This document shows, one piece after another, positions 1,140-59,784 of a stretch of DNA of 64,000 nucleotides. Where the stretch lies: the IMG/VR virus record IMGVR_UViG_3300035070_002626, positions 186,001 to 250,000 of that record; one strand, given 5' to 3'. Source of the DNA: a virus. The notes under the pieces are model-generated. The model worked only from the letters and a program-made list of their open reading frames with translations. It searched no databases and was not told the origin of the DNA. Position 1 is the stretch's first letter. The number at the start of each line of letters is the position of its first letter. The position numbers and the translations under genes are program-made.

Positions 1140-2800
1140 CTGCTGTAGTTCTCCTGCAAAATATGCCAGGCGGTGCCTTCCTGCATTTCTTTAGGTGTAA
1201 ATTGATTGTATGCTAAATTGCAACAAAGATTTCTAACTTCGGGTATAGACGGCATGTAAGGAGTTGCAATTTTCTTTAAGTCTGTGTTAGCCAATGGCTG
1301 CGCTGCATTTGGTCCCATTGTGAACACAGGCTTTCCAAATATCAATGCTTCTACCGCAGCAATACTGTTGTAAGTTACCAAACAGTGCACATCTTGAGAT
1401 AGTGCCATTTCCATTGTGTCCACATTAACACGAGCATGTCGGCTTTGTTTTTCCCTGACTACAATAGGCCTGTCAGTGTGCTGTTTAATTTCGTTGATTG
1501 TTGTTTCTACCCATTCTGTTAAATCTACACCCCAATAAGACAGTGCTTTTTGACTAGGAGGACACAGCAAGATATTTCTCCCTGGAAGATGTCTGTTAAT
1601 TGTAACACCTGTTTTGAGAAATCTATCATCTTGGCACTGTTGGTATAATGGTGCACTATATTGCAATGCATTTTTAGTAATTCGGTGATATTTTTTATGC
1701 TTGCCGTTGCCAAAATAGCCAGTGTCAATGTAATAAAAATCTCGCTTTTCTTCTAAGCATCTATGTATTACTTTCTTTTTAGCAATACCTCTTACTACAA
1801 CCGGCACTGACAAATCAGTTAATTCTACGTGCTTGCTTGCTCCAAACACTCCGTTGGACCCTAATAAAAAACTCTCTACTATTACATCCAACTTTGATTC
1901 TCCTTTTGGTTGAGTAACGCCAGCATCAACAATGCCCATACAGCCCGGGGTATTATGAGATTGTATTATACGTTCAATGATGTTGTCCATACTGTCTTCG
2001 TTAAATATACCAAAAGGGTCACGGCGTAGTTTTAATAAATCTTTAATATCATTTCTAATGTCTTCGGGCAGTGTTAAATCACTTGCACTAATTGTGGGAT
2101 TGTTTAACGTTTCCAAATATTCGTCATGATAGGCATTCCACACATTAGCATACGCACAATCTTCATAATTTTCAAACCATGGGCCTCCTTCAGTGTAGTG
2201 CAAAAGTTTAGGGCTACCGTCACGAGGTTCTACATACCAGTCAGTTAACCAGTTCCATTCAGGGTTAACTGCGCCAATTTCTCTGTCTTTAAGCCAGCTA
2301 AATCTATGCAAGTATGCACCTGTTATATCTGGGGCGTTAACAACATCAACAGTTATTTTTTTATTGGCCTTGTGTGCGCAATTCCACACAACCATGCTGC
2401 TCCAATTTTTACGTGGATAAACTGTTTGTTGTTGCCCGTCCATCTTTACACCTTCTTTAGGAGTGTAATCATGTTGAACGCAAGTTACTGCTTTTTTAGG
2501 ATCAACTTCCTCAATGAGTTTGGCAATATCGTCCACTAGTATCATATCACTATCCATAAAGATAGCAGTACCTTTATAGTTGTTAAGTACTGGTACTAAA
2601 AAACGAGTGAACGTAAATTCTGTACTTGCAAGTTTATCAACTTCGCGACTATAAAATCCACGCATGCGCAAATCGTCTTGTTTTAGAAAGTGTATGTCCA
2701 CCGGAATAGTTGCATGTTTTAATATGCTGTGGCGGCACACGTCAGCAGCAATAGGTTCGCGACTGTCCCATCCAATGTAAATTGTAAGAATATCTTCCAT
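1136..2800 (-). CDS. Two-domain glycosyltransferase (GT-A N-terminus, GT-B-like C-terminus)
   Basis: 554 residues. Residues about 1-240 look like a GT8/GT-A-type transferase: IYIGWDSREP at the N-terminus and a metal-binding DxD in FMDSDMILVD (D83, D85). After a linker, residues about 300-554 form a second domain with GRNILLCPPS and NSIAAVEALIFGKPVFTMG, resembling the C-terminal half of GT-B or capsule-synthesis proteins and the downstream 311-residue protein. The fusion implies two consecutive transfer steps, or transfer plus acceptor binding. Coupled by TAATG to the gene upstream and ATGA to the gene downstream. Substrates cannot be read from sequence. Confidence 0.7.
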   Translation of the reverse strand: MEDILTIYIGWDSREPIAADVCRHSILKHATIPVDIHFLKQDDLRMRGFYSREVDKLASTEFTFTRFLVPVLNNYKGTAIFMDSDMILVDDIAKLIEEVDPKKAVTCVQHDYTPKEGVKMDGQQQTVYPRKNWSSMVVWNCAHKANKKITVDVVNAPDITGAYLHRFSWLKDREIGAVNPEWNWLTDWYVEPRDGSPKLLHYTEGGPWFENYEDCAYANVWNAYHDEYLETLNNPTISASDLTLPEDIRNDIKDLLKLRRDPFGIFNEDSMDNIIERIIQSHNTPGCMGIVDAGVTQPKGESKLDVIVESFLLGSNGVFGASKHVELTDLSVPVVVRGIAKKKVIHRCLEEKRDFYYIDTGYFGNGKHKKYHRITKNALQYSAPLYQQCQDDRFLKTGVTINRHLPGRNILLCPPSQKALSYWGVDLTEWVETTINEIKQHTDRPIVVREKQSRHARVNVDTMEMALSQDVHCLVTYNSIAAVEALIFGKPVFTMGPNAAQPLANTDLKKIATPYMPSIPEVRNLCCNLAYNQFTPKEMQEGTAWHILQENYSR

Positions 2801-3555
2801 TAGTCTCTTCTTTCAATGTCTTCTTCACTGAGTTCGGTACCCATCCAAACTTCAATTACTTTAGCAGTAACATTGCCGACATTAGTTGCTTTGTGCCAAG
2901 TGTGTGCAGGAATATCAATACTTTGTCCCGATGTATATAATATACTTGACTTGTCGCCATTGGCAAACTCTAAATCCATACGGATATCGCCTTCAACTAC
3001 ATGCCAATGTTCACTACGTATAAAATGTCTTTGGTCACTCAGCGGAGTTTCGGTCCCAAATGCAAGTTCCTTTACTGCCCAACCAGGGCCATTATGCAAC
3101 ACTGTGTAACTTCCCCATGCACGGTGCGTTGTAGGTTGACTCCACTCTTTGAGTATCCAACTACTGCTATTCTTTTTATCTTCGCCGCCAACACCAAATG
3201 CAAACTCTACATCCGAATAAATCATTTCTGGAATATTATCTTTAGTTCTGTCACCGCCGTTGGCAAATACAATTTTTGTTTTGTTGCTTGCTGTAGACAG
3301 CAATTGAAAAATTGCACTGCATGCTGTGTCGTCGTTGTCATTGAACCCAATAACTTCATCTACACATGCTAATTCTTTAATAATAGAACAGCGCTCTTCA
3401 AAGGACATAAAAGGGCGACCTTTTTTACGTGCGAGCCATTCATCGCTATTAACTCCTACAACAAGCTTGTCGCCAAGTTCTCTTGCTGCCTTAAAATATG
3501 CTATGTGCCCGCTGTGAAGTGGATCAAACCCCCCTGTAACTAATACTACAATCAT
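2800..3555 (-). CDS. HldE/TagD-like nucleotidyltransferase fused to a cupin (ManC-type) domain
   Basis: 251 residues from ATG 3555, with AAGGAT upstream as ribosome-binding site. Residues 1-130 carry the cytidylyltransferase signature: TGGFDPLHSGH (the HxGH-type nucleotide site) and GVNSDEW, then FMSFEER, as in HldE/RfaE C-domains and glycerol-3-phosphate cytidylyltransferases. Residues about 140-245 form a double-stranded beta-helix with SEHWHVVEGD and IPAHTWH, the pattern of type II mannose-6-phosphate isomerase domains. The protein probably activates a sugar or polyol phosphate; the cupin may isomerise or bind the sugar. The combination is unusual in cellular enzymes. Confidence 0.75.
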   Translation of the reverse strand: MIVVLVTGGFDPLHSGHIAYFKAARELGDKLVVGVNSDEWLARKKGRPFMSFEERCSIIKELACVDEVIGFNDNDDTACSAIFQLLSTASNKTKIVFANGGDRTKDNIPEMIYSDVEFAFGVGGEDKKNSSSWILKEWSQPTTHRAWGSYTVLHNGPGWAVKELAFGTETPLSDQRHFIRSEHWHVVEGDIRMDLEFANGDKSSILYTSGQSIDIPAHTWHKATNVGNVTAKVIEVWMGTELSEEDIERRD

Positions 3556-3609
3556 AGTTGATATCCTTGATTTCTTGTTTTAAATGTGTCTACAGCGTGT
3601 GTTATTAAA

Positions 3610-4428
3610 TTATGCAATCCCATATGTTTCACCTTCGTGTCGCATGCCATTGAACACTGTGGTCTTAAATTTATTATTATCACTGTTTATTGTAGTAAAA
3701 AAATCTAAGTCTAGATCTAATTTTTCTATTAAATTAATTATTGCTCTTGTGTCCTTGGGCAAACACATCCCGCCGTATCCGCGTAGTTCATTGCTTACAT
3801 CAAGATACATATCACCCGCTCTGCCTGTTAGAATATAAGCATCTTTGACTCGTGTATAATCACTGTCTAACTTCTGACAGATTTCATAAAACACGTTAGC
3901 AAATGTAACTCGTGTAGCAGCATACAAATTTAGATAGTATTTGAGTATCTCAGCTTCATTTGGATTTAATTGTACAGTATGCACCGGATAATGCCCGTGT
4001 GCCTTTACAACAGTTTCGTAAACATAATTGTCTTTGGTTCCTACTGCTAGCATTTTATGTTCATTAATAAAGTCGTGTTCTGCACAACGCTCTCTTATAA
4101 ATTCTGGAACAAAACAAATCTGTCTATTTGTATATGTGTCTAGCATACTTTGTGTAAAGCCCGGAACAGTACTACTTCTAATAGCAATTATACCGTTGTA
4201 ATCTATGCTGTCTAACTCTTGTATTACACTCTTGACTATGTCAGTATTGCAGTCACCATTGGGCTTACTAGGTGTAGGCACACAAATAAATGTACACTCT
4301 GTATCTTTTACAATATTAATTGATGTATCAAATTTAGTGTCGTGCACAAATACATTGTGCCCTAGTTGCTCAAAGCCTACTTTGTTTGCTTTGCCTATTA
4401 CACCTAATCCAATAATTCCTAATTTCAT
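3610..4428 (-). CDS. UDP-glucose/GDP-mannose dehydrogenase family, short form
   Basis: 272 residues. The N-terminal Rossmann fold starts GIIGLGVIG, followed by CVPTPSKPNGDCN and the RSSTVPG strand typical of nucleotide-sugar 6-dehydrogenases. The catalytic cysteine is C222 in GGMCLPKDT (family consensus GGxCxPKD). Usual members have roughly 400 residues and a C-terminal nucleotide-sugar-binding domain; here the protein stops about 50 residues after the cysteine, so that domain is missing. It may need a partner, or use a changed substrate. The start overlaps the upstream epimerase stop as ATGA. Confidence 0.85.
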   Translation of the reverse strand: MKLGIIGLGVIGKANKVGFEQLGHNVFVHDTKFDTSINIVKDTECTFICVPTPSKPNGDCNTDIVKSVIQELDSIDYNGIIAIRSSTVPGFTQSMLDTYTNRQICFVPEFIRERCAEHDFINEHKMLAVGTKDNYVYETVVKAHGHYPVHTVQLNPNEAEILKYYLNLYAATRVTFANVFYEICQKLDSDYTRVKDAYILTGRAGDMYLDVSNELRGYGGMCLPKDTRAIINLIEKLDLDLDFFTTINSDNNKFKTTVFNGMRHEGETYGIA

Positions 4429-5297
4429 TTTAAGTTTGCCTCAACTGTATATTTTAATCCAGCGTGTAGATCTGTAGTGGGCACCCATCCTGTTAGTCGT
4501 TGCACCTTTGTAATGTCCGGCATACGTCTGCGCACACTACCTTCTGGTGCAGGAAACTTTTTAATAGGCTGATCAACTCCCATATTATCTAGTATAATTT
4601 GTGCTAGGGTGAGCACATCAACTTCTTCGTTACTACCAATGTTAACTATTTCTCCACGTGCTGCATCTGTAAACATCAATGCTACTAGTGCATCACAAAA
4701 GTCCTTAACGTACAACCAGCTGCGTGTGTTGTCGTATCCGTATAGTTCTACGACACCTGTTTTCACTCTATCAATAAATTCATCAACAAAGTGATTAATT
4801 TGGCGAGGACCATATATGTTGTTAGGTCGTACTATAATCCAATCTAGTCCGCTTGCAATACATGCTTGCTCACCGAGTGCTTTTGAATTAGCATAGCTCC
4901 ATCGAATATTTGTAACGTCGGACACCACAATAGGACACGCTTCGTCTGTTGGTATCTTGTAGTTAAAGTAGTCAGTTGCTCCTGCAATACTTTCTGGTGT
5001 GCCAGTGTATACTATTAGCGGGCGCAACCCATCTTTGTTTCTGTAGTAGTCTAATATGTTAAGGGTAGGAATAATGTTGTCATTGATAACTTCAAACCCT
5101 TTGGTGTAAAAATCTTTGGTACTGTTGTATGCAGCAAGGTGTACAACGATATCTACTTCTGGAAATACTTTAGTTGTCTTAAGATCACCGGACTCTTTGT
5201 CCCATGCTATAATTTCACACTCTGGATGCTGTAGTGTTAATGTTTCTATAAGGTGACTTCCTATAAATCCTGATGCACCTGTAATTAATATTTTCAT
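4425..5297 (-). CDS. NAD-dependent epimerase/dehydratase (extended SDR)
   Basis: 290 residues. The N-terminal GASGFIGSHLIE is the glycine-rich NAD(P)-binding motif (GxxGxxG). The catalytic pair is in SYANSKALGEQ (YxxxK form), followed by IVRPNNIYGPRQ, the usual substrate-loop strand of sugar epimerases and dehydratases; SWLYVKDFCDAL is also typical. Such enzymes interconvert or dehydrate nucleotide sugars. It lies between the DegT-family gene and the UDP-sugar dehydrogenase, one base from the former and overlapping the latter, in a clear operon. Epimerase versus 4,6-dehydratase cannot be decided by eye. Confidence 0.87.
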   Translation of the reverse strand: MKILITGASGFIGSHLIETLTLQHPECEIIAWDKESGDLKTTKVFPEVDIVVHLAAYNSTKDFYTKGFEVINDNIIPTLNILDYYRNKDGLRPLIVYTGTPESIAGATDYFNYKIPTDEACPIVVSDVTNIRWSYANSKALGEQACIASGLDWIIVRPNNIYGPRQINHFVDEFIDRVKTGVVELYGYDNTRSWLYVKDFCDALVALMFTDAARGEIVNIGSNEEVDVLTLAQIILDNMGVDQPIKKFPAPEGSVRRRMPDITKVQRLTGWVPTTDLHAGLKYTVEANLK

Positions 5298-5298
5298 T

Positions 5299-6483
5299 TT
5301 ATTGTCCGTTCATTGATACGTTGTCAAATGCTTTAAGCATTTTGTCTATGCCTTCTTTACAGTCAACAGCATGATTGCCTACCCAGAAACCATTTTTATG
5401 AATGTTTTCAGCAGCATCGTAGTTGCCAGTGGCAGTGTGTGGTAGCATTGATATTACAGGTTGAGCAAGGAAGTTTCCACTGGCAAGTGGTCTCGATTCG
5501 ACGCCTAACAATTCAAACTGTTCAACTAACAGATCACGTTTACCTTCCATGCTTCCATTGAGTACACAACCAAAACTAAACCAACTACTGTTGCCTACTT
5601 CTTTTTGTAAAGTTAAGTAACCTTTATCAGCAAACACACTCATAAAGTAATCTTTGTTTTCAATTCTCTTTTTTAAGATGTCTTCCCATTTTTTAATTTG
5701 AATACTTCCTATTGCGCCGCTCATTTCTAAAGGACGTACACTGTATCCAGGGGTTACAAATGTAAAACTGTCTTTGAAAAAGTTACCTGTCTTTTTAAAG
5801 ATACTACTATTGTCTGGCAATTCTCTACACCAACCGTGTGCTCTTAAACTTCTAAGATAATCTGCATCTTCTTGATTTTGTACGCATATCATTCCGCCTT
5901 CCATTGTTTGTAAATGGTGTGAAAAGAAAAAGCTATGACTGCCCATCATTCCGTGTGTACCGCAATATTTGTCGTTGTATGTTGCGCCCATACTTTCACA
6001 GTTGTCTTCTATTAGAACTAAATCATGCTTTTTGCAAATTAAAGTTATTGCATCATAGTCGCATGAATTGCCGCAAAGGTTAACAGGCATAATTGCAACA
6101 GTGCCTCCGTCTATTGCTTGTTCTATTTTGGTTACATCAATATTAAATGTGTTAGGATCAACGTCTACAAAATTTAAAATAAAATCATTTTGTGTTACAG
6201 GAAAATATGTTGTGCTCCATCCCACTGCGGGAACAATAACATTTGCATTAGGTTTTTTATTTAAGTTGTATTTCCATTTTAACAATGATAACATCAATAA
6301 GTTTGCTGTAGAACCGCTGTTTACCATAACAGCATCAGTTGCTCCAAACTTAGTCGCAAATTCTTTTTCAAACGCAAATACCTTGGGACCCATTGTAAAA
6401 CGTCCCGAGTCCATTACTTCTTGTATTGCAATTAGTTCGTCGGTGCCCCATGTGGACGAAGCCAGTGGATACGTTGCCTGCAT
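5299..6483 (-). CDS. DegT-family 3-dehydratase-like enzyme (ColD/RfbH type, His replaces PLP Lys)
   Basis: 394 residues, PLP fold type I of the DegT/DnrJ/EryC1/StrS family: NSGSTANL (phosphate loop, about 56-63), EDNCESMGA (cofactor-ring aspartate D160), then SFFFSHHLQTMEGGM at 184-198. In aminotransferases this last block reads S-F-x-x-x-K, the lysine binding PLP; here position 189 is His. The same change defines ColD (GDP-4-keto-6-deoxymannose 3-dehydratase, about 388 residues) and RfbH/E1 (CDP-4-keto-6-deoxyglucose 3-dehydratase). The likely reaction is 3-deoxygenation of a 4-keto-6-deoxy nucleotide sugar, as in colitose- or abequose-type sugars. AGGAG lies upstream of the start. Substrate is inferred only. 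Confidence 0.85.
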   Translation of the reverse strand: MQATYPLASSTWGTDELIAIQEVMDSGRFTMGPKVFAFEKEFATKFGATDAVMVNSGSTANLLMLSLLKWKYNLNKKPNANVIVPAVGWSTTYFPVTQNDFILNFVDVDPNTFNIDVTKIEQAIDGGTVAIMPVNLCGNSCDYDAITLICKKHDLVLIEDNCESMGATYNDKYCGTHGMMGSHSFFFSHHLQTMEGGMICVQNQEDADYLRSLRAHGWCRELPDNSSIFKKTGNFFKDSFTFVTPGYSVRPLEMSGAIGSIQIKKWEDILKKRIENKDYFMSVFADKGYLTLQKEVGNSSWFSFGCVLNGSMEGKRDLLVEQFELLGVESRPLASGNFLAQPVISMLPHTATGNYDAAENIHKNGFWVGNHAVDCKEGIDKMLKAFDNVSMNGQ

Positions 6484-15114: not shown

Positions 15115-17349
15115 TTATCCTCGAGCTAGTGTTAATAATCTATCTAGCTCTGATTCGATCATTGGGTCACGCTCTGCTTTTAGTGCAGGTTTTCCTGTGT
15201 CAATGTCTGTTACTTCTGTCATATCTTCATCGTCGAGATCTTGTTGATTTGCTTTAGTAAGAGGCTCTTCCTGCGTCGGATCTTCATTTATGGATTCATT
15301 TGCACTAATAAACTTTTCGCCTTGTTTCTCAATCAACTTTTTAAGTGCAACTGCTCCTAGCACGAGTGCAACTGCTGCGCCAATTTCAAATTTGTTGTCG
15401 ATGAGCATTTGTGCATATTCTTCACCAATTGCACTTTTAACCCAATCCCATCCTTGATCCATATAATATGCCCCAGTTGCGCCTGCTGCAATTTTACCAG
15501 CATGTTTTTTTAGTAGCCATTTTAGTACTGGCCATGCACCTCTTGCTGCTACAAATTTAAGAACCCATACTGCTGCTGCTACAAGTGGAGCCATTTCTGT
15601 TAGTTGAGCTTCACTCATAAACGGACGCAATTCTCTTGCGCGGCTTGGGTGCTTTAACATTCTTAAGCCTTTAGATTCACGTTGTCTTATAACTTCCGGA
15701 GTTACGCCCATTGCACTTGCAACCTGTTGCAGTGTGTATTCTTTTTTAAAAGGCCCTATACCAAATCTTGCTTGTATAACTTTTTTAATTTTTACATCAT
15801 CAATTGCATCTAGTTGTGCTGCTAAAACTTTTTTTAATTTTGCACCGTCGACTCCGCTAAAATCAAAATCATCAATGGTGCCGCCAGGCATATCTACTTG
15901 TGTTGCTTTTTTGGTAATATCTTTAGCATCTACTGTATCGTCTGTTGGGATACGTACACCTTTGTATTGAGGACTGTTACCTGCATATGGCATTGCTTCT
16001 CCTAGTGGCTTAAAGCCTCTAGTACTGCCAGTTGGTTCTCCGTTTGGTGCAATTTCTCGTGTGCCACCGAGGTTGCTAAGTGGTCTAGCCTGTGGGCGCA
16101 TGCTACTTGGTCGTGCCATCGGACGCAGGCTAGTCATTGGTGCATTTTCACCAAGCTCGATGTTGAATTCTTTGAGTCTGGCTAGTACCAGTGGTCTACA
16201 ATCGGCATCGGGATTATCCAAACCCATTTCGTAAATGTCATCAAATAGTTCATCGTCGCCAATTAGTCCGTACAGTTGCTCAGTTGCAAATTCTCCAGCT
16301 GGGCCACAATGCAATGGTTCTTTCATAAGTTCAGCTAGTTCTGCCATTTGTTCTGGTGTGCCAGGCAGTGCCCATGTACCTTCGGTAATACTGTCTGCCC
16401 ACTGTTCAAATACGTCAGCTTCTTTCATGTTAGTTTCCTTTATTTTTGCTATTATTGGCAAAGCTTCTTCAATTCGACTATCAAGTGTGTTTGTTGAAAA
16501 CACTTCTCTTACCTTGTCAATGGTTTCATCAAGATCAGTAATTTCCATTGGATCCCATGATGCAAAGATATCTTTATAGCCCTTACGACTAATCATTTTC
16601 TTTGCTTTGCGTTTAAGGTCTTTATAGTGCCTAACTGCATCTTCAGCAATGCTTACTGCATCAACATTTTGACCAAACGATTTACTTTTAGTAGCTCTGA
16701 TAAATTTACTTAATGTTGCTATTTCATTAACTGTGTCACTGATGTGTTGACCAATCTGATCGTATGGATTACCACCTTCAGTTACATGCCTTGCCATTGC
16801 TTTACCGCCGCTTATACTACGGAATGGCATCTTAAATCTTTCGCCTTGACTGTTTTCAACAAACAAACTTTCAATGTTTCTAAAACGTGCTTCGCCTTCG
16901 CCTAGTTTTCTTGAATGTTTGATAATAAGCTTTGCTGGGCCTTGTTTATTATAACTAGTTTTGTTTGTACCGTTCCAGCCTTCAGCTAACTGGGCCATAC
17001 TTTTCATTGAATACTTTAATCTATTCATGTTGTTAAGGCTAAATGTATACAAGTTACGCTTTGCTATATTTCTAATAACTGCAAGAAAATCATACCAATC
17101 ACCGCGGTCATCACGCTCCATTGTGCGTCCGATACTGTCGCCGTAGTATACTTCAATTTTGTCTTCGCCGTCTATTAGAATGACTACTGTCCCGTAATCT
17201 TTGTTTTCAGTTTTAAAATTAAACGAAATCAAGTCAGCATCAGCTGCATTCACAGTAGGCTTGCCCATAGCGTTAAGTGCTTTAGGGTCAAAGTCTCGTG
17301 TTACTATTGTGTCAAAAATTTGTTGTGCTGCGTTGTTATCTTGTGCCAT
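15115..17349 (-). CDS. Virion-type protein with sigma-70 region 4 domain and membrane segments
   Basis: 744 residues. Residues 1-400 resemble a large protein family of marine T4-like virions (DYGTVVILIDGE, DWYDFLAVIRNIAKRNLYTF, then EPLHCGPAGEFATEQLYGLIGDD; from memory). Residues 405-460 are a Pro/Arg/Met-rich linker. Residues 518-578 match sigma-70 region 4: ARFGIG, then YTLQQVASAMGVTPEVIRQ and LKHPSRARELRPF, which lines up with E. coli RpoD RFGI...YTLEEV...VTRERIRQ...LRHPSR...LRSF. Residues 586-604 and 654-670 are hydrophobic; the tail is acidic. It lies downstream of gp17. It could be packaged and act on host RNA polymerase. Confidence 0.75.
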   Translation of the reverse strand: MAQDNNAAQQIFDTIVTRDFDPKALNAMGKPTVNAADADLISFNFKTENKDYGTVVILIDGEDKIEVYYGDSIGRTMERDDRGDWYDFLAVIRNIAKRNLYTFSLNNMNRLKYSMKSMAQLAEGWNGTNKTSYNKQGPAKLIIKHSRKLGEGEARFRNIESLFVENSQGERFKMPFRSISGGKAMARHVTEGGNPYDQIGQHISDTVNEIATLSKFIRATKSKSFGQNVDAVSIAEDAVRHYKDLKRKAKKMISRKGYKDIFASWDPMEITDLDETIDKVREVFSTNTLDSRIEEALPIIAKIKETNMKEADVFEQWADSITEGTWALPGTPEQMAELAELMKEPLHCGPAGEFATEQLYGLIGDDELFDDIYEMGLDNPDADCRPLVLARLKEFNIELGENAPMTSLRPMARPSSMRPQARPLSNLGGTREIAPNGEPTGSTRGFKPLGEAMPYAGNSPQYKGVRIPTDDTVDAKDITKKATQVDMPGGTIDDFDFSGVDGAKLKKVLAAQLDAIDDVKIKKVIQARFGIGPFKKEYTLQQVASAMGVTPEVIRQRESKGLRMLKHPSRARELRPFMSEAQLTEMAPLVAAAVWVLKFVAARGAWPVLKWLLKKHAGKIAAGATGAYYMDQGWDWVKSAIGEEYAQMLIDNKFEIGAAVALVLGAVALKKLIEKQGEKFISANESINEDPTQEEPLTKANQQDLDDEDMTEVTDIDTGKPALKAERDPMIESELDRLLTLARG

Positions 17350-17354
17350 AATAC

Positions 17355-17362
17355 TATTTATT
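17355..17362 (-). promoter_or_regulatory. T4-late-type promoter motif next to an ATG
   Basis: Minus-strand AATAAATA, five bases upstream of the ATG at 17349 and overlapping the gp17 stop codon. No ribosome-binding site lies between. It could start a near-leaderless late mRNA for the sigma-domain protein. Confidence 0.35.
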
Positions 17363-18932
17363 AAAACATTGCCACAAACGGCAAAGGTTCAATTTGATCC
17401 TCTCCAAAATCAGTCATGTGTGTATCCAGTTCCTTGTGATACCCTGTTAAAATTTGCAACATACGAATAGCTAATATGGTAGACATAACCAAATCATCTG
17501 TTTCTCCTGGTTTAGCTGCATAGCTAGTGCCATGGGCTACGAAATTTTTAAATTCGCTTATCAAGCTTCTGCTACGAACTGTCATTTTGTCTGTTTCTAC
17601 AAGTGTTTTTAACTTTGCACACGCCGAAACTTTACTCTTATTGGTAGTGTTAAATCCTTTGCGATATCGTCTGCTACTGCCACTAACAACACTGTTGTCG
17701 CTTAGGAAGTAACCAGGTATGTTTTGTTCTCCGTATTGCTCAATAGTAATCAATGCAGCTTCACCTAATGTGTTGTTTTCAACCGAGTAGTATATACTCT
17801 GTGCATCTTGAACCTCATCGTTAATATGTTTAATAATATCAACTAGTATACGAATTTGGTCTGGAATAGGAGTTTTATTGTGTCGCCATTCTGCTATCTG
17901 TTCTGTTGTGTTAGCCTCAAACACTTGGATAGCACTTGGGTCGCCGCCTGTGCCCAGACTTGGATCTAATGCTACTACATAGATTCTATTTTTCTGTGGC
18001 TTTTTATACCAGCGAACTTGTCCAGTTTTGTACAACGGCTCTATACCTTCAAGGTCGATCAGTTTGGTTGGAGCAATAAGTGTTTCGTCGTTAATAATGA
18101 ATTCACAATCCATTTCTCGCCGAAAACGCTCAACTCCTAATATCGCACGTTGCTCATCTGCCCATTCTTCGTCTCTGTCAGGATGCTCGGCCCAATATGC
18201 TCGATATGCTTTAAATCCATTAATACCCAAGTCTTTGGTATTTCCAAACTCGTCTTCGGTTTTGTTTGCACCTTTCCATATGTATGCAAACTGATCCTCA
18301 TCACTATTCGGTGTACTAGTAATAATAGCTCCACCACCTGTACTCAATGTAGGCGATATACTAGTCCAAAATTCTTTAGCAATAGTAGGTCGAACAAATG
18401 CAAACTCGTCACAATATAAAAGTGTAATACTCATACCACGTCCGGTATTTTCAGTTGTTGTTTGTGCTACAATACGACTTCCGTTGTCAAATTCAATACT
18501 GCCTTTATTATAACTTACTACACCGGCTCGTATGTGATTTGGACATGCTTCATATGCATACCTTACACGTTGCATAATCTCCTGAGCACCTGCATACTTG
18601 TGCGCTGCAACAAGAATTGTACTGTCGGGCTTGAACATACCAAACCAAAGAAGATAACCAGCAGCACTTGTGCTCTTACCGGTTTGTCGAGGCATCATTG
18701 ATATTGAAAATCTGTTTTCATGATAGGTTTGAATCAAGCGTTCTTGAAATTCCCATGGATCGTATTGCATTTTTCCTTGCACAGGGTGTTGTATGAAGAA
18801 AAAGTTCTTCATAAAGTATTCAGCACCCTTTACTGGATCAGCACACAACACAAATTCTTGAATTTGCTGCTCGGTGTATTCTTCTTTTTTATGGGGACTT
18901 TTAATTAGTACCCCGTCAAGTGATTTACTCAT
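17361..18932 (-). CDS. 17: Terminase large subunit gp17
   Basis: 523 residues (T4 gp17 has 610). The ATPase domain has the Walker A PRQTGKST at 81-88, the adenine-binding segment WEFQERLIQ before it, and the Walker B TLLYCDEFAF. The C-terminal RNase-H-like nuclease has VALDPSLGTGGD (first metal aspartate) and a late ETDDLVMS. It cuts concatemers and pumps DNA into the prohead through the portal. Unlike T4, the gp16-like gene is not adjacent; the region upstream holds an oppositely oriented HNH gene. Both catalytic centres look intact. Confidence 0.96.
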   Translation of the reverse strand: MSKSLDGVLIKSPHKKEEYTEQQIQEFVLCADPVKGAEYFMKNFFFIQHPVQGKMQYDPWEFQERLIQTYHENRFSISMMPRQTGKSTSAAGYLLWFGMFKPDSTILVAAHKYAGAQEIMQRVRYAYEACPNHIRAGVVSYNKGSIEFDNGSRIVAQTTTENTGRGMSITLLYCDEFAFVRPTIAKEFWTSISPTLSTGGGAIITSTPNSDEDQFAYIWKGANKTEDEFGNTKDLGINGFKAYRAYWAEHPDRDEEWADEQRAILGVERFRREMDCEFIINDETLIAPTKLIDLEGIEPLYKTGQVRWYKKPQKNRIYVVALDPSLGTGGDPSAIQVFEANTTEQIAEWRHNKTPIPDQIRILVDIIKHINDEVQDAQSIYYSVENNTLGEAALITIEQYGEQNIPGYFLSDNSVVSGSSRRYRKGFNTTNKSKVSACAKLKTLVETDKMTVRSRSLISEFKNFVAHGTSYAAKPGETDDLVMSTILAIRMLQILTGYHKELDTHMTDFGEDQIEPLPFVAMF

Positions 18933-21144: not shown

Positions 21145-21522
21145 TTACCTCGGATATCCTTTAAATGCTATAACTGGGCTTTCGGTGTGAACACCGTCAG
21201 GTTCTCGACTGCCTGTGTGCGACCCGTCTTCTTTACTAACCATCCCAAGTGCAGCAAACGCTTTCTTTGCCATATCTCTTTCTACATCAGAGAACGGGCT
21301 AATAAGACCATCGCCGCCAATCCAACTTTCTGGATCTGGCATGTTTTCATTGTTTCCTTCAGCGTCCATTCCGGCCATGGCGATAGTAGCACGATACATA
21401 TCGTAGTAGCCTTTGCTTCTCACATGGCCAGGACTTGCTGCTTGATGCACATGGGGCGCTTTGCCTTTCCTGTGCTTAAAACGCAAGCCTCTTTCTTCCT
21501 GTAGGAATTCAATAGCTCTCAT
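21145..21522 (-). CDS. Probable internal head protein with LQE cleavage peptide
   Basis: 125 residues. It starts MRAIEFLQEERG, a short amphipathic peptide ending in L-x-E, the form of the T4 internal-protein targeting peptide cut by gp21. The rest has HVHQAASPGHVRSKG, then DMYRATIAMAGMD, PESWIGGDG and ERDMAKKAFAALG, a C-terminal pattern I associate with virion proteins of marine T4-like phages. The start overlaps the stop of the upstream gene as TAATG. Packaging is inferred from the peptide and the context. Confidence 0.6.
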   Translation of the reverse strand: MRAIEFLQEERGLRFKHRKGKAPHVHQAASPGHVRSKGYYDMYRATIAMAGMDAEGNNENMPDPESWIGGDGLISPFSDVERDMAKKAFAALGMVSKEDGSHTGSREPDGVHTESPVIAFKGYPR

Positions 21523-21822: not shown

Positions 21823-22749
21823 TTATGATGTAATCTTGCTTACTGGTTTTTTACTCCACATACGGCAACTCCAGTAGCCTGCTTTTGTTCTATCTTTTTT
21901 ATCTGAGCAATTGTGTCTGGCACGGAAGTTCTTACGAGCGTCTGGGTTGTCTCTGCGGATTTCCATGTTAGGATCGCCAAAGTTTACTTTTTTAACATTT
22001 CCTGTTTTAGGATCTTTTACATACACTTTAAACTTTTTAACATCGCCCCTTGATGGCTTGCCAAGCTTAACTTCACGTCCTTGGTATTTGGCTTCATTGG
22101 TTTTGCCATACTCCAAGGTTTGCATCACATTGTTAACCATTGCGCTAACATCACTTGAGCCCATTTCTTCATCATCAGCATGAAGTTCAGCTTCTTGTTC
22201 AATTGCGTCAATCATACGGTCAACACCGTACTGTCTCACCAGATCGCTAAATCCCCCCATGGTCATGAGTCTACGCTTGATAATGTCTGCTACATCGTCT
22301 GAATCTTCAACAAGTTCAAAACTTTCAGCAAGTGCAGTGTGATGTTTTTTCATATAGAATGCAGCAGTATCTTTGTTACCCATGCGTTCGTGAAATTTTG
22401 CTTGATCAGAATAGTTAGTTGTAACCTCGGCTGATTCAAAATAATTTGTTGCTGCTTCTCTACCGTGCTTTTTAATGAACTCTGCTTTACTCATGTTTTC
22501 AGCATCGTCAAGTTGAGAATCTTTCATCTTGCCTTCGGATACTTCGTCGTCGTCACTCATTGTGCAGCCGCAGCCTTCGAGCACCGATAGTCCATATTCA
22601 TCTGCTTCAATAACCACACCATCATCGTTGTGACTTGCAACATCAAACTCTAGTGCTAGTTCTTCGTTAACAACAGCGACAAATACATCGCCCTCAATCA
22701 TAAACGACTGTGCTCTTTCGCTTTCGGAGATGTATTTTGTTAAACTCAT
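21823..22749 (-). CDS. Virion-associated protein with ISE cleavage peptide and Cys-containing C-terminus
   Basis: 308 residues. The N-terminus SLTKYISESERAQSF contains an I-x-E site. A Cys pair lies in EGCGCTMSDDDE. Residues about 110-160 form helices, then a basic C-terminal third with KFKVYVKDPKTGNVKKVNFG and ending RARHNCSDKKDRTKAGYWSC, a module I recall as widespread in marine T4-like phage proteins. It may bind DNA in the head. The start overlaps the stop of the 474-residue gene as ATGA, so these two are coupled. Confidence 0.6.
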   Translation of the reverse strand: MSLTKYISESERAQSFMIEGDVFVAVVNEELALEFDVASHNDDGVVIEADEYGLSVLEGCGCTMSDDDEVSEGKMKDSQLDDAENMSKAEFIKKHGREAATNYFESAEVTTNYSDQAKFHERMGNKDTAAFYMKKHHTALAESFELVEDSDDVADIIKRRLMTMGGFSDLVRQYGVDRMIDAIEQEAELHADDEEMGSSDVSAMVNNVMQTLEYGKTNEAKYQGREVKLGKPSRGDVKKFKVYVKDPKTGNVKKVNFGDPNMEIRRDNPDARKNFRARHNCSDKKDRTKAGYWSCRMWSKKPVSKITS

Positions 22750-24181: not shown

Positions 24182-24790
24182 TTAACTATCTGCTTTACCA
24201 GCGGAACTTTTCACCGTTGGAATTTTGTTTTTACCCATAATTGGGCTGTCTTTACCAGCTGGAGTATCGGTGTTGTAAACTGCTGGTGCAGTTTTACCGC
24301 CTGCAATTGTGTAATCACTTGCATACTCGTTGCCTACTACTTCACGCTGATAGGGGTCAGCACTGTAGTATTCGCTAGCTTCTTTAGACTCAGCACTATT
24401 TGGCCCGTATTCAGTACCAAGTAGCGGATTTGTTTGATCGTCATATCCATCACGCTCGTTGTCAACGCTGTCAGCATATCCAGCTTGTTGAATAATCATA
24501 TGGTTTGGATCCATACCCATTAACCTGGCAATCTGCATAATCTGTGGCGGAGTTGCTGGATAGTTAAACGATACGTCAAAGAACGACATGCCTTCGTTTT
24601 CAACACCTGGAAAATCTTGAAGTGTTTTTTGAATTGGTAATCTTTTTACATCGGACATAGTAATAACGTCAAACTGTTGAAGTTTTTCTTCTAGTGCGTT
24701 AATAAACTTTGCATCCGTATCACCGAGTATTTTGATTCTATAATCAAAAGTTTTTTTAGACTCGGTTAGATAGCTTGCGAATGATTTCAT
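24182..24790 (-). CDS. Probable internal head protein with LTE cleavage peptide
   Basis: 202 residues. It starts MKSFASYLTESKK, an amphipathic peptide ending L-T-E, like T4 internal-protein targeting sequences. It is followed by a ferredoxin-like strand-helix pattern (FDYRIKILGDTDAKFINALE, then FFDVSFNYPATPPQIMQIA) and a flexible Ser/Asp/Tyr-rich C-terminus with KDSPIMGKNKIP. Related proteins occur near terminase genes in marine T4-like phages (from memory). GCTAAATA lies 22 bases upstream of the ATG. Confidence 0.6.
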   Translation of the reverse strand: MKSFASYLTESKKTFDYRIKILGDTDAKFINALEEKLQQFDVITMSDVKRLPIQKTLQDFPGVENEGMSFFDVSFNYPATPPQIMQIARLMGMDPNHMIIQQAGYADSVDNERDGYDDQTNPLLGTEYGPNSAESKEASEYYSADPYQREVVGNEYASDYTIAGGKTAPAVYNTDTPAGKDSPIMGKNKIPTVKSSAGKADS

Positions 24791-33504: not shown

Positions 33505-33882
33505 CTATTTTTTTGGTTTAACTGTTTTTTTAGTTCCAGTTGTGCCTTTAAGGCTACTCTTAGGCGGCTTGTATGCTTTTTGAACTTTGCCGCCGCTAGT
33601 AACACTAGACTTGCGCATCTTGTTGAGCATGCTTAATAACTTGCTTGCCGGATTTACACGTTTAGTCTTCTTGGCTTTGCGAGCTGCTTGAGCACTCTTG
33701 GTCTTGCGAGTCTTCTTCATTTGAGCTCGCTTGGCTTGATCAATCGGAGCATCGCAATCTTTTGCATTGCTAACAACACGACCGTTTCGTGGGCCGCTAG
33801 TACAACGCCATTTGGTTTTCAGTTTGTTACCTGTACGACTAAAAACCATTTCGTGTTCGGTGATAAATTCTTCTGCTCTCAT
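33505..33882 (-). CDS. Basic internal-head-type protein with ITE cleavage peptide
   Basis: 125 residues from ATG 33882 (a TTG five codons earlier is less likely). It starts MRAEEFITEHEMVFSR, whose amphipathic peptide ends in I-T-E. The rest is strongly basic, with RWRCTSGPRNG-like KWRCTSGPRNGRVVSN, then runs of K and R (KRAQMKKTRKTKSAQAARKA). This fits a DNA-condensing protein packed in the head and possibly injected, as for T4 internal proteins. The start overlaps the gp13 stop as TAATG. Confidence 0.68.
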   Translation of the reverse strand: MRAEEFITEHEMVFSRTGNKLKTKWRCTSGPRNGRVVSNAKDCDAPIDQAKRAQMKKTRKTKSAQAARKAKKTKRVNPASKLLSMLNKMRKSSVTSGGKVQKAYKPPKSSLKGTTGTKKTVKPKK

Positions 33883-34655
33883 TATCCAATTACCCAAGTA
33901 AGAGGCTGTGAGCCGTCAACATAGTTTTTAAGCTCTTCAATTTTTTCAGCCATGATAGCAGATCCCTCGGCTTTCATCTGTGCACCGTTTAGTGCAGTGC
34001 CGCCTTGTGGACCTGCAATAGTAGCAAACTTTTCTCTAGCTTCGCCGATCATTAATTTACAATTGCCAATCATATAATCCTTTATCCATTGCGAGATAGA
34101 AAAATCACTGAGTAGTTGTGCTTCGGGACGCAGATTGTAACACCAAAGTAATACAACTTCTCCACTGCCTTTGATATCACGCATTAGTGTTATCTCTTTA
34201 GATGCACTATTGTAAGTGTAATTCAAAAATCCACCAAACATCTTAGCAGTAAGCTCAACATACTGGCTATAAAAATCATAGGTAGCAAGTCCGCCCATGG
34301 TGTTACCATTTAACAAATATGTGTTAAGTGCAGCTGAACTAAATGGTTCGAACGCACTGCCTTCTCCGCCGTTGTCCCAACCAATGGTTCTTCTGAACAC
34401 TTGTCTAACAGTTTGTATTTCGCTGGGCAAGGTATAAACATTTACACCATCCTGTAATTTTAGAAAGTTGTAGCTTTCCTCAAACGCATTTTCGGCTCGT
34501 TGGCGATATGTGCCGATAGCTCGCTGATACGATGCTTCGTAGTGCTCTGCATCAAGTTCTAAGTCAATCATCCCGTCGCCAAGTTGAAGCTTTACATAGT
34601 CAATTGTTTGCTGCTTGAGCGTTTCAAGAGTTTGATTAAGTGTTACTGTTGCCAT
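33882..34655 (-). CDS. 13: Neck protein gp13
   Basis: 257 residues (T4 gp13 has 309). The pattern LGDGMIDLELDAEHYEASYQ, AIGTYRQRAENAFEESYNFL, and SISQWIKDYMIGNCKLMIGEAREKF with the GGTALNGAQMKAEG loop is that of gp13-type head completion proteins in T4-like marine phages. It closes the filled head and forms the neck with gp14. Its transcript starts at a GCTAAATA 23 bases ahead of the ATG. gp14 is on the other strand, unlike in T4. Confidence 0.85.
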   Translation of the reverse strand: MATVTLNQTLETLKQQTIDYVKLQLGDGMIDLELDAEHYEASYQRAIGTYRQRAENAFEESYNFLKLQDGVNVYTLPSEIQTVRQVFRRTIGWDNGGEGSAFEPFSSAALNTYLLNGNTMGGLATYDFYSQYVELTAKMFGGFLNYTYNSASKEITLMRDIKGSGEVVLLWCYNLRPEAQLLSDFSISQWIKDYMIGNCKLMIGEAREKFATIAGPQGGTALNGAQMKAEGSAIMAEKIEELKNYVDGSQPLTWVIG

Positions 34656-42835: not shown

Positions 42836-45800
42836 TTACATCATTAGTGCTAGTACTTCGATAACGCCTTCTCCGCCTTCGTGAGCTTCGATTGCTTTAC
42901 CAATTACTGTACCCATTGCTGCATCGTTGTTAGCCATTGCACGACCATTACCAGCTGATACCATCAAGTCACCTGCTGCTACTGGACCTGTTACCTTACA
43001 AGGAACACGACCTGCTAGTGCAAGAGCAACACCTTCTTGTGTGCTGTTCATCAAGTGAGCTGGATCAGTTGAGATAATGCCTGCTACTGCACGACAGTTT
43101 TCACTGTCACATGCTGCAACTTTGCCTTCTCCGCCAAACATTACAACAGTACCTGCTTCAATGTCTGCATCAGCTGCATACATCTCTGCCAAGTCAGCGT
43201 ATTGTGCTGAAGTTGCTGTTGCTGTGATTGTACCGGCACTAAAGTTACCACTACCATCGCGGAATACAATTGTATTAGCTGTGCTTGCGCTTGTAGCGTT
43301 TGATGTAACAGTAAATGTTCCACCTTCACTACTTACACTACCACTAATACCACTACCTGATGTAGCACCTGTACCAACATAGTTACCAGTTGTATCAGTA
43401 CCTAGTGCAACCGAGTTAGCTGCAATAGTTGCTGTTAGTGTAGCATTACCAAGGTTAGTAAGTGTTGCACTACCAGTCAAGTCACCAGCAAGTGTAATTG
43501 TTGGATCAGCAGTATTTGTAGTTGCAATAGTAATACCTGAACTACCATCAAAGTTAGCAGTACCAGTTACAGCGCCACTGAGTGCAATTGCTCTAGGTGT
43601 AGTTAATTTTGCAGCACTACCAGTTGTGTTTTGGTTAAGTGTACCAACTGTTGCTGTTAGTGTAGCATCACCTAGGTTAGTAAGTGTTGCACTACCAGAT
43701 AGATCACCAGCAAGTGTAATTGTTGGATCACTTGTTGCAGTTGTTGCAATAGTAATACCTGAACTACCATCAAAGTTAGCAGTACCAGTTACAGCACCAC
43801 TAAGTGCAATTGCTCTAGCAGTTGAAAGTGTGTCAGCACTACCAGTTACATCACCTACTACGTCACCAGTCATACCAGCCGCAGTAAAGGTTGCACTTAA
43901 TGTGCCGCCTCTTGTAACTGTAACATCGCCATTTAAGGCAGTAGCAACACTAGTTGTGCCATTTTGGATCTGTGTAGCGTCAATGCCGGTTAGCTGACTA
44001 CCGTCACCAATAAAGCTGGTTGCCGCAATGTTACCACTAGCAGTTAAGTTACCAGTTACATTAGCACCGTCTGTTGTAGCAATCATAGATGCTACACCAC
44101 CAGCAGTAATGTTAACGTTACCGTTTGCACCTGCAAAATCAACAAGCGAACTACCACTTTGGATACTATCACCAGCAATTTCAACTGCGTCATCAATTAC
44201 ACCTGGTGTTGTACCATCTGGGCCAAAGAAGCCGATAGCATTACCGCCTGTGTTTTTAATAACAACGTTACCAAGTGTGATTGTACTACCTGCTAGGAAC
44301 AATTCGTTCCAGCGTTTAGTATCACTACCAAGGTTTTGTGCTACGTTTGCTGCTGGCAACAAGTTACCAGTAACTTCAACAGTTGGTGCACCACTTAGTG
44401 CTTCAACTATTGCAGTTGCATCACCGTTTGATAGAGAAACAATACTCGTTGTGGTTGTGATTTCACGAACTTCAATTGTATCGCCTGTTGCCGGAGCTTC
44501 AGTAAATGTCAATGCTGTTCCGCTAACACCGTATGCTGTAGTTGGTAGCTGTACCACACCGTTAATACTAACAATAACACTAGCAGTTGTTTGAGTTGAC
44601 TGTAGCGTAAATGCTACTGTACTATCATCACCTGAGAATGTTTCACTAGCAATAACTGTGAATTCAACACCAGCTGTTGCCCAGCTGTCATTATCGTAGA
44701 ATTCAAACTGATCCAATGAAGTATTGAAACGAATCATACCAGTTGCTGGGGTACCAGGTCGTTGTGCTGTAGAACCAACCGGAATCATCATACTTTCAGT
44801 GCCTGTTACTTTAAGCGTAGCACCTGCGGTTTGAGTAGCGTTTTCACCGATAGCAACTGTTGAAGTACCTGCATCTGCTAGTACATATGCATTACCTGCT
44901 GCGTTCTCAATGAGAACATCAACATCTTGACTGTCAGTGTTTAGTGTAATAGTTTCACCAGCACTATCAATACTATCAGTATTAACGGTAATGTTACCGA
45001 AAGTACCTGCATCTGCAAAGACACCAGTAGTATTGACATTACCTGAGTCAACATTGCCACTGAATGTAGCAGCAACACCACCTGTGATTGTACCAGCTGT
45101 TGAACTCAATGTTCCATCAGTTAGTGTACCACCTGTTACAGTACCACTTGCTGTTAGTGTAGTTGCATCAACCAATGTTGTGTTAACATTACCTGAGTCA
45201 ACATTGCCACTGAATGTAGCAGCAACACCACCTGTTAGTGTACCGGCAGTAATACTTGCAGTACCGTCTGTTAGTGTGCCACCTGTTACAGTGCCACTTG
45301 CAGTTACAGTAGTTGCATCAACCAATGTTGTGTTAACATTACCACTATCAACGTTACCACTGAATGTAGCAGCAACACCACCTGTGATTGTACCACCAGT
45401 TGAACTTAGTGTACCATCAGTTAGTGTACCACCAGTTACAGTACCACTTGCAGTCAATGTAGTTGCATCAACCAATGTTGTGTTAACATTACCTGAATCA
45501 ACATTGCCACTAAATGTAGCAGCAACACCACCTGTAATACTACCAGCATTTAGACTTGCAGTACCATCAGTTAGTGTAGCACCTTCGACAGTACCTGACG
45601 CTGTTACAGAGACAGTTGTTACATCTGCTTGTGATACAATATTACCACCAGTTACATTACCGACTGCTGTTAGTGCCTGTGCTTCAAGTGCACCACCTGT
45701 AATCAAGTTACCAGCAGTTACATTACCACTAAACGTAGCAGCAACACCACCTGTAATACTACCAGCAGTAATACTTGCAGTACCGTCTGTTAGTGTGCCA

Positions 45801-56823: not shown

Positions 56824-58035
56824 TTATGAGAACGAAAGGTTCTGTACAGCAATTTCACCAACATAGTCACCGGCGTTGCCGAAGGACGATGCTGTGTTTG
56901 TTAGCTCAATATAGCCATAACGTGTCATAAAGGACACTACTGGCTCAAAGCTGGACGGATCAAGAACAACGCCTGAACTCATTAGCGGTACGTATGGGCA
57001 ATAGAACGCTGGTGCGTCTGTTTCACTTGCGCCTTTGTAGCCAACTAGTACTGGAGTTGTGTCGCCTGCGTATGAGTCACAGAATACACGCATTGTGCCA
57101 TTCAATGTACCAACGAATTTAGTATTTGTTGGTGCTTCAAATGTGCCTTCTGTTGTGCGAGCAAATGCACTTGTTGTTGCACTCTGTAGCACTGTAAGTG
57201 CAGCAGGGGAAACAACAGCATAGTTGCCTGCGCCACGACGTGTACGCTGAGCGATCAAGTTAGCTGTGCGGTTGATTAGAACTGCAAGAGCTGCATGCTC
57301 GTCACCAACAAATGTTGCTGTACCTGATACTGTGGCTTGGTTGTATGTAAACTCAGTTGCTGCTAGCGAACGTAGAGAAAGTAGAATCTCTTGGTCGATT
57401 TCAGCAGTAATCTCTTGAGCAAGTGCTGCCATGATTTCAGCTTCAACGTCAATGCCGTGCATGGCTTGTGCGTCTTGTGCTGCTTCAAAAGTCCAGCGAG
57501 CTTGTAGCTTACGTGTTTTTGCTTCAACAGCTTGCTTGAGGATTTGTACGGAAATCTGACGACCGCCGGAACCTTCAAGTACTGCTGTGTTTGCACCTTG
57601 GTATGTGTTCTGTGCATTTTGTACAACGCCTGCTGTCACTGTGGACGCAGAGGAGTAAGCTTGTGCAATTTTAAATGGTGATAGAGCTTCGTCACCAGCG
57701 GCTGTACTTGTTGCGGCTGCTGAGTTATCTGTCATTGCGTTTGCATAACGAACACGTAGTGTGTGGATTTGGCCAACTGGACCAGTCATTGGCTGAACGC
57801 CGACTAGTTCGTTAGCAATAACAGTTGGCATAACACGTCTGATAACTGGTAGGATAACACGGTTAAGTGTTGCTACGTTACCGGAAGAAGTTGAACCTGC
57901 TGTTGCGTTCTCTGCCAAGTGCTTGCGAGTGTTTTCTAGGATAACACCCATTGTTGAACGGCGTGAACCTTGAAGGCCTTCTAGGAGGGCTTCCTTGGTC
58001 TCACTCCATCTGTTTTCTAGTAGTTCTTGTGACAT
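56824..58035 (-). CDS. 23: Major capsid protein gp23
   Basis: 403 residues (T4 gp23 has 521). The N-terminal region ends at a probable gp21 cut after LAE in KHLAENATAG (residues 40-42). It is followed by LNRVILPVIRRVMPTVIANE and LVGVQPMTGPVGQIHTLRVR, the signature of T4-type major capsid proteins; AEIDQEILLSLR and SPAALTVLQSA follow in the HK97 fold. It forms the capsid lattice. AAAAGGAGACAG precedes the ATG. The gene is last of the head operon and is followed by a strong terminator. Confidence 0.96.
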   Translation of the reverse strand: MSQELLENRWSETKEALLEGLQGSRRSTMGVILENTRKHLAENATAGSTSSGNVATLNRVILPVIRRVMPTVIANELVGVQPMTGPVGQIHTLRVRYANAMTDNSAAATSTAAGDEALSPFKIAQAYSSASTVTAGVVQNAQNTYQGANTAVLEGSGGRQISVQILKQAVEAKTRKLQARWTFEAAQDAQAMHGIDVEAEIMAALAQEITAEIDQEILLSLRSLAATEFTYNQATVSGTATFVGDEHAALAVLINRTANLIAQRTRRGAGNYAVVSPAALTVLQSATTSAFARTTEGTFEAPTNTKFVGTLNGTMRVFCDSYAGDTTPVLVGYKGASETDAPAFYCPYVPLMSSGVVLDPSSFEPVVSFMTRYGYIELTNTASSFGNAGDYVGEIAVQNLSFS

Positions 58036-59157: not shown

Positions 59158-59784
59158 CTAAATCTTTAGGTCCCTAATCAAACGAGATACTTCGTCTGTT
59201 AGGTACTTCTGTATTTTGTCGTTTGACCCTGACTCCCTAGCCATTTCAAGAACCGAATGACCATGTTTCATGTTCAAAAGTCCTTCGTAAATAGCTTTAG
59301 GGTAAGCATTTGGAGCACTGGGCTGTGCGACTACATCGACAGTAACAATTTCAAAGTCACTGACGTGTCCGTTGTGTGGATCTACATTACCTGATCCACG
59401 ACTAGATACTCCCAATCGTACACCTGACTGAAGCATAGTTTTAACTAGCTCACCCATTGGTGTTGGAAGTATTTTTAGTTTTCCGTATCCATTTGGACCG
59501 TCCATCCACATACTAGTAATCATGTGACATACACGGTCTAAATTAATCTTAAGGTCATCCGGGTGATCAACTTCACCAAGGACGCTATTGCCTTCTTTGA
59601 TCTGTTCATTAAGAGTTTTAACTGCGTTAGAAATCTCACTCACAGGGTATATTCGCTCATTAGCGTTCTTAACACCACCTTGTATGCAGATGCCTTCCAT
59701 AAAGAGTTCCTTACCGTCTTTCCCTTCAACAAGTTGAATTTGTGCGGTTTCGAAGGTAAGGTTTTCTCTAAGATAAAGAGCCAT
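59158..59784 (-). CDS. 21: Prohead protease gp21
   Basis: 208 residues (T4 gp21 has 212). The herpes-type serine protease fold has the catalytic His in GEVDHPDD and the Ser in RLGVSSRGSG, plus IYPVSEIS and DFEIVTVDVVAQPSAP. It cuts at (L/I)xE sites in gp22, gp23 and internal proteins. AAAAGGATAACC precedes the ATG. It sits between the acidic core protein and gp22, as in T4. Active-site residues are intact. Confidence 0.93.
   Translation of the reverse strand: MALYLRENLTFETAQIQLVEGKDGKELFMEGICIQGGVKNANERIYPVSEISNAVKTLNEQIKEGNSVLGEVDHPDDLKINLDRVCHMITSMWMDGPNGYGKLKILPTPMGELVKTMLQSGVRLGVSSRGSGNVDPHNGHVSDFEIVTVDVVAQPSAPNAYPKAIYEGLLNMKHGHSVLEMARESGSNDKIQKYLTDEVSRLIRDLKI

Follow-up and report, generated by a model that had tools for sequence, protein, structure and literature searches.

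Why does a phage protein of the virion structural type contain region 4 of a sigma-70 factor? This question is raised by a 744-residue protein encoded in the 64,000-nucleotide stretch of DNA analysed here (hereafter the window), which is part of a 299,910-bp genome record. The virus is a large, marine-type virus infecting bacteria. An earlier reading made without database searches (the sequence-only reading) had placed region 4 at residues 518-578 of this protein and had offered two options for its role, namely a packaged protein that could redirect transcription, or a membrane-anchored anti-host sigma. Our best explanation as a whole, to which we give a probability of about one half, is that region 4 serves as cargo, in the form of a cassette, in an internal head protein system like that of T4.

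Table 1. Features of the locus, of its genome, and of other proteins carrying the region-4 cassette. Positions are those of the window unless a record is named; arrows mark candidate cleavage points.
Feature	Extent	Position	Strand	Evidence or remark
Carrier ORF	744 aa	15115..17349	-	Directly downstream of TerL
Virion structural homology in carrier	Residues 104-265	16555..17040	-	phrog_13484; tblastn
Region-4 cassette	Residues 452-585, 134 aa	15595..15996	-	pI 9.33; present/absent junctions; five-relative alignment
Sigma-70 region 4 (4.1 + 4.2)	Residues 518-578	15616..15798	-	
Hydrophobic all-helical cassette	Residues 586-689	15283..15594	-	pI 8.89; co-transferred with region 4
Acidic C-terminal tail	Residues 690-744	15118..15282	-	pI 4.05
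Candidate prohead-protease site	LGE451↓AMPYAG	15997..16005	-	Insert junction against L002-L004
Candidate prohead-protease site	LTE585↓MAPLVA	15595..15603	-	Insert junction
Candidate prohead-protease site	INE689↓DPTQEE	15283..15291	-	Recombination junction
Terminase large subunit (TerL)		17361..18932	-	Pfam Terminase_6N 4.5e-17; phrog_36964 1.4e-109
Small ORF with tag	MRAIEFLQE↓ERG	21145..21522	-	
ORF with internal-protein-like capsid-targeting tag	MKSFASYLTE↓SKK	24182..24790	-	
Small ORF with tag	MRAEEFITE↓HEM	33505..33897	-	Tag read from its ATG start
gp23-type major capsid protein		56824..58035	-	phrog_138 4.5e-103; N-terminal candidate site HLAE↓NATAG, read from sequence
gp21-type prohead (head maturation) protease		59158..59784	-	phrog_207 1.9e-57
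gp55-type late sigma		G000:C1:261695-262039	-	Outside the window; phrog_234 2.7e-25
L012 carrier of region-4 cassette	548 aa			
L013/L014 carrier of region-4 cassette	572 aa			N-part nucleotidyltransferase-like
L019/L020 carrier of region-4 cassette	264 aa			N-part pterin-4a-carbinolamine dehydratase, Pfam 1.2e-18

Region 4 and its carrier protein

The identity of the domain was borne out by profile, sequence, and structure searches, and it is a genuine RpoD-type sigma-70 region 4. The Pfam profile Sigma70_r4 matched residues 522-567 (E = 4.3e-8; 33 bits, the curated cut-off being 24.1), and the 61-residue stretch searched alone gave 6.7e-10. Relatives scored 31.9-44.7 bits with the same profile. 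In addition, the carrier was matched by PHROG 351 'RNA polymerase sigma factor' (1.4e-9) and by TIGR02393, the NCBIfam model of the RpoD C-terminal domain (4e-12). The PDB matches listed by phmmer were region 4 of RpoD, SigA, HrdB, SigB, and RpoS, with the best (1.8e-9) among the RpoD/SigA chains, and identity to the E. coli region 4 was 44% across 72 aligned residues. Furthermore, the cassette was modelled with AlphaFold at moderate confidence (about 70-76 pLDDT in the core), and in a Foldseek comparison all 50 PDB matches shown were sigma or sigma-region-4 chains with a probability of 1.00. A generic helix-turn-helix identity was dropped because sigma matches prevail by a wide margin in Pfam, PHROG, NCBIfam, PDB, and Foldseek. 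The sequence-only reading was also right that regions 2 and 3 are missing, as Pfam found neither of them in the 744-residue carrier. Across the 299,910-bp genome record, the profile Sigma70_r2 had no match, and the only region 4 found was that of the carrier.

Five region-4 cassettes could be compared residue by residue (E. coli numbering). R588, Q589, E591, and F563, together with the helix-turn-helix and hydrophobic core, are kept in all five. E585 is kept in four of them, and K593 likewise in four, with R in the remaining one. R584 is lost in all five. This residue is a main -35 contact in sigma region 4, and the specificity for a normal -35 element is therefore doubtful.

The rest of the carrier agrees with the earlier description of a virion structural family with two hydrophobic segments and an acidic tail. 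Its N-part belongs to the virion structural protein family phrog_13484 (E = 6.6e-15, PHROG profile search), and phages of the PA5oct/RaK2/GAP32 group matched residues about 89-303 in tblastn. The Kyte-Doolittle maxima of the two hydrophobic segments are 1.51 and 1.77, and the acidic pI of the N-part and tail contrasts with that of the basic cassettes between them. The place beside TerL is common to the carrier homologues of PA5oct/RaK2/GAP32-type jumbo phages, and L007-L010 and L071 show the same neighbourhood. In phage CBB, mass spectrometry of purified virions detected CBB_276, the homologue next to TerL, through 8 peptides that cover 21.7% of it (PMC5259590). Homology with this protein supports a virion location of the carrier. 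Of the two options in the earlier reading, a packaged protein is the better one.

The phrog_13484 proteins (CBB_276 and those of PA5oct, RaK2, GAP32, and Ettore) share with the carrier the homologous N-part and the position beside TerL. However, the region-4 and hydrophobic cassettes occur in none of the cultured homologues examined, and region 4 is absent from all four TerL-adjacent cultured homologues tested (Ettore, Phosso, Vibrio 2.275.O, and Atu_ph07).

A cassette exchanged between relatives and carriers

Region 4 does lie inside the carrier, as had been claimed, but comparison with relatives indicates that it is a transferable cassette outside the virion protein family proper. It is missing from L002, L003, and L004, which are otherwise 85-99% identical (best segments 99, 91, and 85%). 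At the insertion site these relatives read ...PLGE-DEQLNE-IAP... or similar, and the window carrier reads ...PLGE, then about 130 residues including region 4, then AQLTE-MAP.... The DNA identity between the window and L002 is 99.7-100% over residues 101-451, 67-82% over residues 586-689, and 98.8% over residues 690-744. Over residues 586-689 the window is 93-96% identical to L004. INE689 is the downstream recombination junction, where the identity to L002 climbs from 82% to 98.8%. This pattern shows that region 4 and the hydrophobic cassette were replaced together as one unit with its ends at LGE451↓ and INE689↓. The region-4 cassettes have a pI of 9.3-10.05, compared with 9.6 for mature IPII/IPIII of T4. 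The leader of the cassette (window 15850-15996, residues 452-500) contains about 40 residues (RIPTDD..DITKK..VDMP) that are conserved across the five cassettes, and it was modelled at low confidence with no helix.

Scans of viral contigs found the region-4 cassette in four carrier types (Table 1). A second filled/empty pair was seen among pterin-dehydratase ORFs, which read QLEE-region 4-..IEEKWS in L019/L020 and QLDEKWS in L065. The ORFs of L019, L020, and L065 all end with a recurring KWSxxYKKSIxCxNPKGFSQKAHCAGRKK, with or without a preceding region 4. In L013, region 4 sits in the nucleotidyltransferase carrier and not in the dehydratase gene, and L020 shows the reverse. There was one copy per cassette-bearing record searched, the contigs being mostly fragments. 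This indifference of region 4 to its carrier suggests a cargo acting in trans. L015 was excluded, because its match to the cassette profile was weak and fell in a head-protein ORF that is unrelated and lacks region 4. Neither the region-4 nor the hydrophobic cassette was found in the bacterial genomes searched, and in cultured or annotated phage records the region-4 query matched only ordinary sigma genes or unannotated records.

The same comparison bears on the possibility that region 4 is a plain DNA-binding helix-turn-helix of the head or packaging machinery, with a role in DNA condensation or one like that of the terminase small subunit near TerL. A basic cassette with a helix-turn-helix, in a carrier beside TerL in the window, would suit such a role, and the T4 internal proteins are likewise basic and head-associated (PMC9026906). 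However, the cassette most resembles region 4 of primary sigma factors, a likeness that extends to the 4.1 helix and the RpoD C-terminus, and not a generic helix-turn-helix. Moreover, the carriers of L012, L013, L019, and L020 were not seen beside TerL in the available sequence, for which reason a terminase small subunit was dropped as the main reading, and region 4 is missing from the homologues beside TerL in phages Ettore, Phosso, and Atu_ph07 and in the Vibrio phage. We regard a plain DNA-binding role as unlikely.

Candidate protease sites and a proposed route into the host

The window encodes a gp21-type prohead protease of 208 residues, and the genes for the gp23-type major capsid protein and the portal lie in the same head cluster. 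The gp21 protease of T4 cleaves after L/I-x-E (PMC9026906), and the cassette borders LGE↓, LTE↓, and INE↓ in the window fit this (L/I)xE↓ motif. An exception is the region-4 cassette of L013, whose N side has no clear protease site. Triplets of this kind are common in the carrier ([LIVMF]xE occurs 27 times in 744 residues), and therefore the motif alone proves little. Since the region-4 cassette is transferable and flanked by prohead-protease-type sites, it probably acts as a peptide set free from the 744-residue protein and not within it. The other option in the sequence-only reading, a membrane-anchored anti-host sigma, thus becomes less likely.

The hydrophobic companion cassette, for which an AF2 model was all helical, was found at 47 loci in about 30 distinct proteins, with a single copy in each record that has it. 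Its N border carries [LIV]xE in every readable case. By their unrelated upstream sequences, 33 proteins with this cassette fall into 15 groups, and the background of [LIV]xE is 2.4% per position. These contexts cannot be counted as 15 independent events, because the linker before the cassette belongs to the homologous unit; conservation of this linker between unrelated neighbours nevertheless argues for a function. The shortest of these proteins consist of a tag and the cassette alone (MKINEITEQRVDE↓VAP...). The hydrophobic cassette was not found in the cultured phages searched, and a fold search against viral proteins gave no significant match.

In T4, the internal proteins are basic and head-associated, are ejected, and have N-terminal capsid-targeting tags of 10-19 residues (PMC9026906). 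IPII and IPIII begin with MKTYQEFIAE↓. Similar tags begin the carriers of L013 (MLLRELFE↓) and L012 (MKINDLNALSE↓). A short N-terminal (L/I)xE tag is absent from the window carrier, and none is clear in the pterin-dehydratase carriers of L019/L020. Among the window genes, 7 of 61 have a tag, which as a simple rate is not significantly enriched. In the gene clusters of relatives the tag signal is clear: in L045, eight of nine consecutive, mostly unrelated genes carry a tag motif whose last residue falls at position 8-10 (binomial P = 2e-6 even with a background of 15%). Taken together, the tags, the protease and head genes, and the basic pI of the region-4 cassettes make packaging likely and release of the cassette by cleavage plausible.

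Small consecutive genes with tags like MKxxEIxE↓ ahead of unrelated bodies are seen in L045 (3090-7664) and L013 (4278-9800). These clusters may be a repertoire of packaged proteins; nucleotidyltransferase and pterin-dehydratase domains are among those encoded. In addition, several unrelated proteins in the window (21823-22749) and in L012, L013, and L036 end with the same C-terminal module, AKYQGREVKLGKP...KVYVKDPKTGNVKKVNFG...KAGYWSCR (phrog_7595). Elsewhere in the window, ORFs that by eye resemble a cytidylyltransferase, a dehydrogenase, an NDP-sugar epimerase, and a DegT aminotransferase stand in a row (2800-6483), perhaps as a phage glycan cassette, and a 2060-residue protein of repeats such as GTLTDGTASITAGSITGGVAATFSGNV (42836-49018) is probably a fibre.

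For the cargo of an internal head protein system, we propose four steps. First, the carrier would be built into the prohead, as its family membership and the mass spectrometry of phage CBB suggest. Second, the gp21-type protease of the same genome would cut after (L/I)xE at the cassette borders, for which the motif, the junctions, and the T4 precedent speak, and would yield a basic peptide of about 15 kDa with a complete region 4. Third, following the precedent of the T4 internal proteins and Alt, the peptide would stay with the packaged DNA and enter the next host. Fourth, and least certain, it would dock on the beta-flap of the host RNA polymerase, weaken the use of host -35-dependent promoters, and bias the polymerase to phage early genes. 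The beta-flap is the binding site of both T4 gp33 and domain 4 of the host sigma (PMC2988020), and Alt of T4 modifies host RNA polymerase (PMC9026906). As region 2 is absent, the peptide could not start transcription alone. Its role might be that of a delivered sigma decoy or modifier, binding the flap with weak or altered -35 recognition. Since the carrier is probably packed in the head, the cassette may reach the RNA polymerase of the next cell before any viral gene is read.

Alternatively, region 4 may act late in the producing cell as a sigma4- or gp33-like partner of a gp55-type sigma, and its head location would come from the carrier only. T4 gp33 mimics sigma4, binds the flap, and represses basal transcription (PMC2988020). 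A gp55-like gene is present in the genome (Table 1). The gp33 profile phrog_254 matched neither the carrier nor anything else in the genome record, with T4 found at 1.6e-33 in the same search as a positive control; however, divergent gp33 homologues could be missed by this profile. Counts of the T4 late promoter TATAAATA (4 in the window against 4.3 expected) are uninformative. On the other hand, the cassette is patchy and missing in relatives only a few per cent apart, which fits accessory cargo and not a core late-transcription factor. A late role therefore seems rather improbable to us.

There is little to recommend an uncut fusion, corresponding to the membrane option of the sequence-only reading, in which region 4 and the hydrophobic cassette together would tether or block RNA polymerase at the inner membrane during DNA entry. 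The two cassettes adjoin in the window, L012, and L013 and moved together in the window, as such a fusion would have it. However, an (L/I)xE site parts them in all three, no hydrophobic cassette follows region 4 in L019/L020, and that of L020 sits in another gene.

Returning to the cargo reading, the NG86 rates among the cassettes (dN 0.16-0.39 against dS 0.9-3, dS being near saturation) indicate purifying selection. A non-functional fusion, in which a captured piece of host rpoD has persisted by chance in a variable stretch of the protein that tolerates it, would agree with the insertion site in a variable region and with the patchy distribution, but it is very improbable in view of the low dN, the 58-69% identity across several contexts, the helix-turn-helix core and leader conserved across all five, and the single copy per record.

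Comparison with known systems and meaning

The closest comparison is with IPI-IPIII and Alt of T4. As in T4, two of the four carrier types begin with a short tag that closes with (L/I)xE, the cargo is basic, the content is accessory and swappable, and the genome encodes a gp21-type protease; Alt, for its part, acts on host RNA polymerase. However, the cargo here is a piece of sigma, namely region 4, a single polypeptide strings together several cassettes and has (L/I)xE sites inside it, and the window carrier is a larger virion-family protein without the short tag.

The proposed binding site and the lack of region 2 are shared with T4 gp33. However, gp33 has no sequence similarity to sigma (PMC2988020), whereas the cassette is truly homologous to sigma and lies within a putative head protein. 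T4 Srd and Srh are postulated sigma decoys (PMC3594737), and the idea of a phage-made sigma piece competing for core RNA polymerase is the same, but they are expressed early after infection, whereas the cassette lies in a putative virion protein. Polyvalent proteins are also multi-domain phage proteins, which enter the cell on invasion and are cut into their functional parts (Iyer et al. 2017, PMC5512222). They are split by a peptidase domain of their own, and the text describing them does not mention sigma, while the splitter proposed here is the prohead protease. Meanwhile, group 2 jumbo phages, which are related, have single-HTH minimal sigma-type proteins, but these are presented as sigma factors rather than as head-protein cassettes (Iyer et al. 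2021, PMC7824862).

We found no report in the open-access literature of a packaged sigma region 4 as swappable head cargo. Packaged internal proteins, sigma decoys, and gp33 are already known, and what is new here is probably region 4 as swappable, probably protease-released head cargo. We tentatively suggest a wider plug-in system, in which capsid-targeted polyproteins would hold prohead-protease-bounded cassettes swapped between phages and carriers, and in which one cargo would be an injected sigma region 4 that reprograms host RNA polymerase before phage transcription.

For T4-related and jumbo phages that lack an RNA polymerase of their own, the way in which an advantage is gained in the first moments of infection is known mainly from Alt. 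If our reading is true, packaging a sigma region 4 would amount to an attack on host transcription that is non-enzymatic and precedes phage expression. Furthermore, the rule that cargo ends, protease sites, and recombination ends coincide would then give a sequence guide to further injected phage proteins.
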